From an uncultured Flavobacteriales bacterium (lineage in GTDB: Bacteria > Bacteroidota > Bacteroidia > Flavobacteriales_G > Salibacteraceae): a stretch of 64,000 bases of DNA. The notes under the pieces are model-generated. The model worked only from the letters and a program-made list of their open reading frames with translations, did not search any database and had not been told where the DNA came from. The stretch spans positions 558,001-622,000 of the forward strand of contig CAJQLE010000003.1 of assembly GCA_905479105.1 (NCBI GenBank), read 5' to 3'. A program made the translations under genes and the position numbers. Below, piece after piece: positions 38,600 through 63,699 of the stretch (position 1 is the stretch's first letter; each line of letters opens with the position of its first letter).

Positions 38600-38841
38600 T
38601 GAGGGGTGAAACAGTATCGAGTTAGAGTCTTGAGGGAAAACAGTTTTGGTAAGCTTGCCCTCAGAACTCGAGACTCGCACTCAAAACTGTTTTAATAAGG
38701 TATCTACTCATTACTCTGAACTCAAACTCGTTACTCAAATCTGCGGCAGTTTGAGTTGGAGTGTGAGTTTTGAGGGACAAAACAATTTTTCGTGCGAGTC
38801 CTTCGTCTCAAGACTCAGAACTCGCACTCAAAACTGTTTTG
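38600..38841. repeat. ACTC-rich degenerate repeats and inverted repeats before ssrA
   Basis: The string ACTCGCACTCAAAACTGTTTT occurs twice (starting about 38673 and 38821, differing little around it). Reverse-complement versions (TTGAGGGAAAACAGTTTT, GTGAGTTTTGAGGGACAAAAC) lie at about 38630 and 38766. The segment is dominated by ACTC/GAGT words and ends exactly at the 3' end of the tmRNA gene. No gene is seen. Confidence 0.75.
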
Positions 38842-39234
38842 TGGAGCTGGTGGGAGTCGAACCCACGTCCAAACAAGGAACCATAAAGCTTTCTACGAGC
38901 TTAGCCTTCTGATTGATTTTCGATCTTAGCCAGGCCAGAGGCAGCCAAACCAAAACTTATCTTCTTAATTTTCAAACAATCAGCAAAGAAATGATCATTC
39001 TATTCTGTCATTGACCACGCCTCTATCAACACAGGGGTCAGACAAACCCGTGCCAGAGACGTCTCGTCCCATACCTAGTATGAGATAAAGCCTAATCTTC
39101 TATCGAATGATTAAGCAGCAAGAGCGTAAGATGTTTCGCCAGTTACAATTTTAAACAGCTTTTTAACGAGGTGCTATTCAATCCCCGGCTTGCTTACAGT
39201 ATCATCCATCTTGCTGTCAAAACCGGTCAGCCCC
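38842..39234 (-). ncRNA. ssrA: Transfer-messenger RNA (ssrA)
   Basis: This RNA rescues stalled ribosomes and tags the nascent peptide. The mature 5' end GGGGCTGACC pairs with the 3' end CAGCTCC to make the tRNA-like acceptor stem, and the TΨC arm (GGGTTCGACTCCC) is present. The discriminator A is at 38842 and CCA is not encoded. The tag frame reads GETSYALAA then TAA (39140-39111), preceded by the resume-site context GTAACT. Ala charged on the tRNA part gives the tag AGETSYALAA, of the type usual in Bacteroidota (compare GENNYALAA). Total length is 393 bases. Confidence 0.95.
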
Positions 39235-59338: not shown

Positions 59339-59875
59339 ATGGATAATATAAGCGCAATAGCCTTGATAATAACAGTGATTGTAACTGCTGGAGCAATAGT
59401 AGCAGTGGTGTACACGATATTGAATCAATATTTCAAGCAGCAGCAAGAAAACAACGCTATGCAATTAGAAGAAAGAAAAAGGAAAGATTTTGTGACGATA
59501 CAAATGCAAGCTTATGAGCGTTTGATCCTTTTTTTAGAACGTATCAATCCAGAACGATTGGTTTTTAGAGTGAACAAGCCAGGCATGAGCGCTCGTTTAC
59601 TGCAGTCTGATATTTTGAAAACTGTGCGAGAAGAGTTTGATCATAACCTTACCCAACAACTATACATCAGTTCTGAAGCTTGGTTGGCTGTAAATGCTGC
59701 TCGTGAAGAAACATTTAAGATATTCAACGTTGCAGCAGAACGCGTGCACAGAGATTCTGATTCTTTGGCTCTTTCTAAATCCATTTTGGAAGTTTCTGGG
59801 AGTATGGAGAAACTACCTACTGAAGTTGCCATCGATATTTTAAAGAGAGAGTTTAGAAAAAAGATGAAGATCTAG
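59339..59875 (+). CDS. Membrane-anchored helical protein of unknown function
   Basis: The 178-residue protein has one N-terminal membrane helix (ISAIALIITVIVTAGAIVAV) followed by a charged, helical cytoplasmic part (QQENNAMQLEERKRKDFVTI, IQMQAYERLILFLERINPER). The pattern of a short anchor plus soluble helices is common in Bacteroidota genomes with no assigned role. It converges with meaB, overlapping by 4 bases. Confidence 0.72.
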   Translation: MDNISAIALIITVIVTAGAIVAVVYTILNQYFKQQQENNAMQLEERKRKDFVTIQMQAYERLILFLERINPERLVFRVNKPGMSARLLQSDILKTVREEFDHNLTQQLYISSEAWLAVNAAREETFKIFNVAAERVHRDSDSLALSKSILEVSGSMEKLPTEVAIDILKREFRKKMKI

Positions 59876-60908: not shown

Positions 60909-61295
60909 TTATCGGAAGGCATGATTAAAACTCACGAATCTTGGAGTGCAATCGCCTTTTGTGATTTGACTTATATCCACCGAATACTTGAGCCCAATTT
61001 CGAGGTTGTTGCGCACAATAAAATCATGATGAATTTCAAAGTCTTTCAATACACCGAGCTCTTGGTCTTCAAGAGCCAGAACACTGGCTTTGAAATCAAG
61101 AATTACGGCTATTCTTCCATTGCCGTCAGCATGTGGTCTGATATCTATGATCTCTGCATAGGTTTCAACTCTATCATAATCACAGTCGTTAGATTTAGTC
61201 TTATTTGCACAAGACGAAGCCACGAATGAAAAAACTAAGATTGAAAGAATAGCTCTGACGCTATTTAATGAATTTACTGTTCCAAACATTCTCAC
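60909..61295 (-). CDS. Small lipoprotein of unknown function
   Basis: The 128-residue protein has a lipobox near residue 29 (SFVASSCANK) preceded by a hydrophobic segment. The mature part is a short beta-rich domain with cysteines in NDCDYDRVETYAEIIDI and GDCTPRFVSF. Its 5' end overlaps the 3' end of the next gene upstream by 35 bases; a start a few codons later (MFGTVNSLNS) would reduce this only slightly. I do not recognise the family. Confidence 0.62.
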   Translation of the reverse strand: MRMFGTVNSLNSVRAILSILVFSFVASSCANKTKSNDCDYDRVETYAEIIDIRPHADGNGRIAVILDFKASVLALEDQELGVLKDFEIHHDFIVRNNLEIGLKYSVDISQITKGDCTPRFVSFNHAFR

Positions 61296-61974
61296 TAAAA
61301 TCCTTAGAATACATAATTGCTGTAATCACCGATAATGTCATAATCAAACATGTTGTCATGCTGAACATGAAGAATCGGAAGAAGAATTCACTATGAACTG
61401 CTTCGAATTGTGAAGGTACAAGAATAGCTACCAATAATCCTATTGCAGATGATGTAGCGGCTAATGCCCCAATGTGTCTGAAAGGATATTTCAATATCTC
61501 TTCGTACCATTTCATGTCATCTCCCCACTGGAAAATGTAGTAGAACTGACCGTTTGGTAACTCAGCCATCAAAATGGGATCCTTTGTGCTGTCTTTTAAA
61601 TTGAATCGCTCTTGAGGAGCAATGATCTTAAAGGTTGAGAATGTGGTACCAATGGAAGACTCAATTCTCTTGACTTCTCTAATCGCTTCGCTTGGAATAT
61701 CACCTTTGAATAAATCGCTTTCAAGAAAACGAAGTCTGAATCGAATGCAGATTTTCTCAATCGACTCTGCGTTGTATTTTCTCGTTTCGTCTAGTTTTTT
61801 GATCCAACCAAATTTATCTTGAGACAGAGAGCTGCCTTTTGAAATTCGATCAGCTATTGAAATTTCATTCGTAGAATCGCTTTCTAAAAGTGATTTCACT
61901 TCGTTAATTAAACATGATTGCTCAAATTCCATTTGAGCATTTGCCATTTCCTCCAGTAAATTGATATCGTTCAT
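61261..61974 (-). CDS. Two-helix membrane protein with large cytoplasmic domain
   Basis: The 237-residue protein has a soluble acidic N-terminus (about 1-165; contains ELPNGQFYYIFQWGDDMKWY) and two close membrane helices (about 168-190 and 197-222) near the C-terminus. It lacks a signal peptide. It overlaps a small lipoprotein gene downstream and follows a small one-helix protein by 1 base. Function unknown. Confidence 0.72.
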   Translation of the reverse strand: MNDINLLEEMANAQMEFEQSCLINEVKSLLESDSTNEISIADRISKGSSLSQDKFGWIKKLDETRKYNAESIEKICIRFRLRFLESDLFKGDIPSEAIREVKRIESSIGTTFSTFKIIAPQERFNLKDSTKDPILMAELPNGQFYYIFQWGDDMKWYEEILKYPFRHIGALAATSSAIGLLVAILVPSQFEAVHSEFFFRFFMFSMTTCLIMTLSVITAIMYSKDFSENVWNSKFIK

Positions 61975-62174: not shown

Positions 62175-62936
62175 TTATAGAACACCCAAAAATAATAGGA
62201 TAGAAATAAGAATCATAAGAATTCCTACAAGATTTTGAATGAATGAAATGGTGACTTTCTCAAGCAGTCGTTTCCCAATAAGTGCTCCTCCAAACGCAGA
62301 TAGAGTTGCAAGCCCTATTAACCCTAATGATTCTTCTAAAACAGCAAAGTCAAAAGACATGGCATAAGTGCTTATTCTGATGGTGTCTACCAGGCAGGCA
62401 ATAACTACTCCTGAAGCCACAAACTGACTCTTACTCAAACCTAGTTTTACTAGGAAAGCACTTCTCAGAGCTCCTTGATGACCACTTAGACCTCCAAAAA
62501 ATCCGCTCATTACACCTCCCGGAATTAAAAATTTCTTGCTGATCTCGAGGTTCTTTAAACGAGGTAACAATTCCATTAAAGAGAATGTGAAAATCAGCAG
62601 CGCCATCACCACATTGAGAAAATTGGTTTCTATCGGGCCAATATGCAATATCGTATCTGAATGCGCCAATTTTCCTAGTGCTAATGCTCCAAAATACGCA
62701 CCGACAATTGCTGGTAGTCCAAAGCGTATGATCACTGACTTTACTGCATGCTTGCCCACTAAAATGAGCTTGAAAATGTTGTTTAGAAAATGCACTATGG
62801 CCGTTGCAGCAACAGCAAATTCTGGCGGAAAGAATAAAATAAAGACGGGCGTAAGCATGGTGCCTAAACCAAAACCTGAAAAGAAGGTGAGCATCGAAGC
62901 TCCAAATGCTACAATTATGATGACAATGTATTCCAT
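62175..62936 (-). CDS. TauE/SafE-family sulfite/organosulfonate exporter
   Basis: The start at 62936 (MEYIVIIIVAFGASMLTFFS) gives 253 residues with about eight membrane helices; the frame is open upstream through a leader hairpin, so a GTG 51 bases earlier is formally possible. Family signatures are GFGLGTMLTPVFILFFPP (about 22) and GGVMSGFFGGLSGHQGALR (about 138), with a second GL-rich repeat. This family moves sulfite, sulfonates or similar anions. The leader looks like a transcription attenuator (see 62943-63027). Confidence 0.88.
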   Translation of the reverse strand: MEYIVIIIVAFGASMLTFFSGFGLGTMLTPVFILFFPPEFAVAATAIVHFLNNIFKLILVGKHAVKSVIIRFGLPAIVGAYFGALALGKLAHSDTILHIGPIETNFLNVVMALLIFTFSLMELLPRLKNLEISKKFLIPGGVMSGFFGGLSGHQGALRSAFLVKLGLSKSQFVASGVVIACLVDTIRISTYAMSFDFAVLEESLGLIGLATLSAFGGALIGKRLLEKVTISFIQNLVGILMILISILLFLGVL

Positions 62937-62942
62937 AAAAAA

Positions 62943-63027
62943 ACCGGAGCGATTACCTTGTTGCAAGATAATCCTCCGGTGAAGCACCCCTACTTCTTTT
63001 CATAAGAACTAGACTATTAACGGAGGA
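62943..63027 (-). promoter_or_regulatory. Attenuator-like leader of the TauE/SafE gene
   Basis: On the minus strand ACCGGAG (62980-62974) pairs with CTCCGGT (62949-62943), and inside it GATTATCTTG pairs with CAAGGTAATC, making about 17 bp with one bulge, followed by seven Ts and then at once the ATG. Upstream, TCCTCCG (63027-63021) can pair instead with CGGAGGA of the same left arm. The two structures exclude each other, as in terminator/antiterminator switches. The ligand or signal is unknown. Confidence 0.65.
62953..63003 (-). CDS. Possible 16-residue leader peptide in the attenuator
   Basis: An ATG at 63003 opens a frame reading MKRSRGASPEDYLATR with TAA at 62955-62953. It runs through the left arm of the terminator hairpin, so a translating ribosome would block that hairpin. 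It has no ribosome-binding motif. It could be chance in a 16-codon stretch. Confidence 0.3.
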   Translation of the reverse strand: MKRSRGASPEDYLATR

Positions 63028-63111
63028 AGATATCGGTAGCGTATTGAATCGCATTATTTTAGACAATTGATTGCAATTTTACGATTAGTATATTAAGAAT
63101 AAGTTACCAAC

Positions 63112-63699
63112 ATGAGATTAAAGCAAGAGGAATCTATCGAATGGATAGCAAGCAGAAGATCGGTTTTCCCGAAGGAGTTTGAAGAGGGAAGTTTAAGCGA
63201 AACTGAAATTGAGTTATTATTAGAGGCAGCGAAATGGGCTCCAACTCATAAATCAACAGAACCCTGGCGTTTTTCTGTTATTATGAGTCCTGAGAAAAAA
63301 ACAAAGTTGATTAATCTTCAAGTTGAGGCACTCTTTGCGTCAAAAGGTGAATCTGAAATGACTGCTGCAAAAGCAGGCAAGTTTAGAATGATAGGAGAGA
63401 AATCTTCAGCGATTATTGCCATAGTAATGAAGCGTGATATTCAAGAAAGAATTCCAGTTAACGAGGAGCTTTGGGCTGTTGCCTGTGCTGTACAAAACAT
63501 TCACTTGCATTCTGCATCGTTGAATATTGGGGGATACTGGAGTACTGGTGCAATGACAAACGATGATTCAATTCGCGAATTTTTGAATCTTGAGGAAGAC
63601 GATATCCACATGGGTTGGTTTTATCTAGGCAGGTATTCCAAAACCAAGACATTGGTTAAACCTCGTATGATTCAAGAAGATTATGTGAATTGGATGTAA
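63112..63699 (+). CDS. Nitroreductase-family FMN oxidoreductase
   Basis: The 195-residue protein has the nitroreductase fold: a RRSVFPKEF start, the FMN-phosphate-binding RRSV-type loop, EAAKWAPTHKSTEPWRFSVI (about 40-60), and the aromatic C-terminal segment MGWFYLGRYSKTKT. These flavoproteins reduce nitro- or quinone-like compounds with NAD(P)H; the substrate is not known. Its start lies 85 bases from the leader of the divergent exporter gene. Confidence 0.88.
   Translation: MRLKQEESIEWIASRRSVFPKEFEEGSLSETEIELLLEAAKWAPTHKSTEPWRFSVIMSPEKKTKLINLQVEALFASKGESEMTAAKAGKFRMIGEKSSAIIAIVMKRDIQERIPVNEELWAVACAVQNIHLHSASLNIGGYWSTGAMTNDDSIREFLNLEEDDIHMGWFYLGRYSKTKTLVKPRMIQEDYVNWM

Follow-up and report, generated by a model that had tools for sequence, protein, structure and literature searches.

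What does the short leader between a tauE gene and its divergent neighbour do in an uncultured Flavobacteriales bacterium? The window analysed here, a stretch of 64,000 nucleotides of one contig, carries a gene for a TauE/SafE-family exporter on the minus strand (62175-62936; PF01925, E 1.9e-19), which is present as a single copy in the genome, and, 175 bases away, a nitroreductase-family gene on the plus strand (63112-63699; PF00881). TauE/SafE proteins are widespread and their substrate is mostly unknown; a link of the leader to sulfur rests only on the name of the exporter family. The initial annotation had proposed a terminator and an antiterminator in front of tauE, possibly with a leader peptide. 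The leader is probably a small gene switch, and the best reading of its sequence is that of a lineage-restricted transcription attenuator with tauE as the probable target and with a putative sensing sequence that overlaps the base of the terminator.

The leader ends in an intrinsic terminator hairpin of 17 pairs (62980-62943, minus strand). In the minimum free energy fold the left arm comprises 62980-62964, the loop 62963-62961 and the right arm 62960-62951 and 62949-62943, with G62950 bulged; a run of seven Ts (U7, 62943-62937) directly abuts the ATG of tauE (62936-62934). The 97-nt leader folds at −30.6 kcal/mol, versus −19.3 ± 3.2 kcal/mol in shuffled sequences (z = −3.56), and 1 of 200 shuffles was as good. 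The 17-bp hairpin with seven Ts ending at the start codon, as first described from the letters, is thereby confirmed, and neither the hairpin nor the leader element is due to chance. The hairpin (62943-62980) is absent from the list of a consensus terminator scan, presumably because of its bulge. Among the 13 copies of the element, the U-run touches the start codon of tauE in nine, which leaves no space for tauE to have a promoter of its own downstream of the hairpin; the gap is 21-70 nt in L006, L007, L009 and L012. The arrangement is that of an intrinsic-terminator attenuator, a GC-rich stem and then a U-run upstream of the gene, behind a presumed promoter. In L003, the conserved start of tauE reads ATT instead of ATG and follows a run of nine Ts.

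The conserved RNA element, consisting of a hairpin P2, a core and the terminator, spans 63014-62937 on the minus strand and was described by a covariance model (R1). This model scored 85.6 bits (E 3.8e-13) in the genome of the window, whose own copy was a training sequence, and matched 13 genomes in all, with one match per carrier, each before tauE. A tauE homologue is present in 40 of 60 related genomes. Within the genus, 12 of 13 genomes carry the element before tauE, as does one of 22 other genomes of the family (G015, from a sister genus); the remaining 21 family genomes and seven further genomes of the order gave no match to R1. All counts of 13 copies exclude L013, a member of the genus that has neither the element nor a nitroreductase next to tauE and whose genome is 78% complete. 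In scans that scored 12 candidates per genome, and may therefore miss weak relatives, the element was found in seven of 395 genomes across the class, all of the genus or G015, and in one of 395 across the phylum, that of the window itself. A regular expression for the core, applied to the 400 nt before tauE at 82 loci, matched only L001-L009, L011, L014 and L031, the last of which was dropped as a duplicate of the L002 contig region; L010 and L012 have variant forms. The element is restricted to one genus of Bacteroidota and one genome of its sister genus among the genomes scanned. Other hairpins of the form CCGGAG...CTCCGGTTTTT with a loop part of 12-40 were not found in the genus, 12 of 13 genomes having exactly one match and one having none. 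Additional copies were considered as a clue to a ligand, but the genome of the window has a single exact copy. G015 has a second match of 16 nt (L100), which from its position falls within a long open frame and was put down to chance.

Within the element, the sequence at 62990-62974 (minus strand), GGGGTGCTTCACCGGAG, is an invariant core that reaches into the basal part of the terminator's left arm. Across the 13 copies hardly any change affects the stretch GGGGTGCTTC[AG]CCGGAG or the right-hand base of the stem, CTCCGGTTTTTT, and GGGTGCTTC[AG]CCGGAG is retained in 12 of them, L012 having a short change. Over the same carriers, fourfold-degenerate sites of tauE are on average only about 30% identical, at TauE protein identities of 60-94%. 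The core is demonstrably under selection. Eleven terminator pairs fall into two groups, five in the upper stem with changes on both sides and six at the base that never vary. A fixed base is unusual for terminators and suggests that something reads its sequence. The covariation score for two helices, the terminator and P2, was 0.277 compared with 0.154 ± 0.023 in shuffled alignments (0 of 500 as good) and at most 0.183 in slid versions; two of five covariation measures, pairs with double change and further pair types, were not above shuffles. RNAalifold recovered the terminator unaided, its covariation term being just −0.19; P2 was not recovered. The hairpin P2 (63013-62989, minus strand), between the core and the upstream strand described below, was obtained from folds; 78% of its cells are paired, and two of its pairs have changes on both sides. 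L010, L011 and L014 form it weakly or in another shape.

An attenuator also needs a competing strand, and TCCTCCG had been named as one that could pair with the left arm. It is present at 63027-63021, its CCTCCG being complementary to CGGAGG in the left arm, and the seven bases turned out to be part of a longer strand, here called strand A (63034-63021, minus strand). When the nascent RNA was folded without the right arm, the minimum free energy folds of most members joined the left arm to an upstream strand. Since the upper half of the left arm varies between species, it was possible to ask by permutation whether strand A fits its own arm. In ten group representatives strand A favoured its own left arm, the variable part included, over the arms of other species; 53 of 20000 permutations were as good, and 52 of 20000 when the test was repeated. 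With other representatives and scores, 7 to 160 of 20000 were as good; a narrower window with the variable part alone gave 301, and the addition of GGAG 67 of 20000. As controls, strand A had no preference for its own right arm (13027 of 20000 as good), and three stretches further upstream had no such preference for the left arm (17118, 5603 and 1033 of 20000). Taken one by one, L001, L004, L006, L008 and L014 have a strong or clear fit (0 to 40 of 1000 shuffled arms as good), L009 and L010 a weak one (94 and 111 of 1000) and L007, L011 and L012 none (305 to 804 of 1000). A mutually exclusive upstream pairing is found for the set as a whole, but not for these last three singly. The proposed terminator/antiterminator is therefore supported, by compensation in the upper stem and by co-variation of strand A with the left arm, though not in every homologue.

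Further upstream, alignment of the 13 members revealed a conserved box, GTCTAAAA (63057-63064), a candidate part of a promoter or an operator on either strand. In 12 of 13 copies the GTCTAAA of the box lies 42-44 nt from a CGTT (63019-63022) and the intervening sequence is barely conserved, whereas the spacing between CGTT and core ranges from 13 to 34. We tentatively read box and CGTT (63019-63064) as a promoter plus a fixed 5' part of the RNA; they may also be a two-part operator common to both divergent genes. A combined box-to-core pattern had no matches in the genome of the window and is uninformative, because it required GGTCTAAAA where the window reads TGTCTAAAA.

Put together, these elements would make up a cis-acting transcription attenuator of tauE, to which we give a probability of about two in three. 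Weighing against it are the own-arm preference that is clear in only part of the set, the 21-70 nt between U-run and tauE in four copies, the weak or altered P2 of three members, the two covariation measures that do not surpass shuffles and the ATT start of L003. RNA polymerase would initiate in the conserved block that precedes strand A and transcribe through the leader. The nascent RNA would first form a duplex of strand A and what later becomes the left arm of the terminator, enclosing P2 and the core GGGGUGCUUCRCC. A putative small hairpin inside the core, P3 (62988-62978, minus strand; GGUG-CUU-CACC), is predicted by nascent folds in 6 of 13 members with a probability of about 0.3 to 0.9; it would compete with the outermost pairs of the terminator and has few changes by which it could be judged. 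In some nascent folds, strand A with the left arm, P2 and P3 may form a three-way junction, which we offer as a proposal. Transcription would proceed into tauE if this fold were stabilised, the probable agent being a protein or small ligand that recognises the invariant core. If not, we infer that the right arm would displace strand A, the terminator would form and transcription would stop at the U-run before the start codon. The leader can be assigned to the attenuators as a kind; for the putative sensor, both an aptamer, as in a riboswitch, and a protein site on the invariant core are conceivable.

The same RNA could be read as an independent small RNA gene that merely happens to have its terminator in front of tauE, with a core that acts in trans and a separate tauE promoter. 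Its compactness, the conserved stretch just 5' of a strong terminator at its end, the conserved and promoter-like upstream block and the 58-70 nt that separate terminator and tauE in L006, L007 and L009 would all suit such a gene. The element is, however, invariably found before tauE, and the contact of the U-run with the start codon in nine of 13 copies, together with the co-variation between strand A and the left arm, as is expected of an attenuator and not of a small RNA, favours an attenuator of tauE; we regard a small RNA as unlikely. The strong hairpin with its U-run would also suit a plain terminator without regulation, or a hairpin whose only role is to protect the mRNA or to tune translation. 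Translation in Bacteroidota often initiates without a Shine-Dalgarno site, and a U-rich stretch before the ATG could serve initiation. Neither a base and a 10-nt 5' flank that stay unchanged over saturated divergence nor a co-varying upstream strand would be needed by an ordinary terminator, which makes this explanation distinctly improbable.

A leader peptide had also been suggested. A 16-codon frame, MKRSRGASPEDYLATR (63003-62953, minus strand), is indeed present in the window and runs through the left arm, so that the position of a ribosome on it could select the fold. An ATG frame of 16 codons is found at the same place only in L001, L002, L003 and L008, that is in 4 of 13 homologues. It is missing in the other nine, including L004, whose antiterminator is among the strongest, and L005. 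None of the four peptides contains a stretch of a single regulatory amino acid. As a general mechanism the leader peptide was rejected, and ribosome-controlled attenuation is very improbable. The frame is not conserved and probably not functional; it is likely to be a side effect of the conserved RNA. Compensatory changes in both helices and a conserved leader frame had been named as signs of support by the initial annotation: compensation in the upper stem and the own-arm co-variation were found, but the conserved frame was not.

Does the attenuator belong to a known class of RNA? In agreement with the earlier impression that no known riboswitch class is present, no Rfam family, whether TPP, SAM, cobalamin or another, matched the leader of the window at E values up to 5. 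Across nine loci surrounding other members, the only match was a weak one to sR3 (E 2.8), below its gathering score. A resemblance of GGGGTGC to the TPP riboswitch was considered and had no support from Rfam. In classical amino-acid leader-peptide attenuators (trp, his), antiterminator and terminator have one arm in common; the tauE leader likewise uses one common arm for both, but it has no conserved leader peptide. A literature search found no tauE leader attenuator in Bacteroidota.

The closest architecture that we found is the HMP-PP (thiS motif) riboswitch. It is compact, has its conserved sensing nucleotides within or beside an intrinsic terminator, controls the next gene directly and adopts a second fold that keeps the tip of the terminator and breaks its base [PMC6478431]. 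The tauE leader is similar in its compactness, in conserved nucleotides embedded at the terminator, in an alternative fold and in direct control of the next gene as proposed here; it differs in that the HMP-PP riboswitch has a conserved terminator loop and precedes thiamin synthesis genes, whereas in the Bacteroidota leader the loop varies, the base and the 5' flank are fixed and the gene is tauE [PMC6478431]. The thiamin gene context is absent from the tauE leader, and Rfam gave no match, in a library whose inclusion of the thiS family is unconfirmed. The ykkC subtype 2d orphan riboswitch candidates are described as regulating transporters annotated as TauE or EamA with an undetermined ligand, and they share with our leader the position before tauE genes [PMC7266159]. 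By contrast, no Rfam family, ykkC-related ones included if they are in the library, matches our leader at E values up to 5, and nothing ties it to ykkC subtype 2d.

A more far-reaching idea, doubtful as it stands but conceivable, is that of a new and very rare riboswitch class, found in one genus of Bacteroidota and its neighbour. Its aptamer would be a three-way junction that uses the left arm of the terminator, and it would sense the substrate of the TauE-family exporter, which is perhaps also handled by the divergent nitroreductase. A conserved RNA sensor before a TauE/SafE gene would give a direct assay of the exported compound. Like the HMP-PP riboswitch, it would exemplify a terminator that itself contains the sensing nucleotides, and it would be an attenuator in a phylum in which our literature search found nothing similar.

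The surroundings of tauE are conserved as well. By tblastn synteny, the divergent nitroreductase adjoins the element in all 13 carriers. Downstream of tauE, the window encodes a membrane-like frame of about 54 amino acids, followed by a protein of 237 amino acids without a Pfam match (61261-61974, minus strand). This order is conserved, the 237-amino-acid protein being matched in 12 of 13 carriers (not in L012) and the small membrane-like protein also in 12 of 13 (not in L014). Elsewhere in the window, a DUF7935 family protein (59339-59875, plus strand) adjoins a gene for a MeaB-type GTPase, and a tmRNA gene is located at 38839-39234 on the minus strand (Rfam RF00023, 145 bits).
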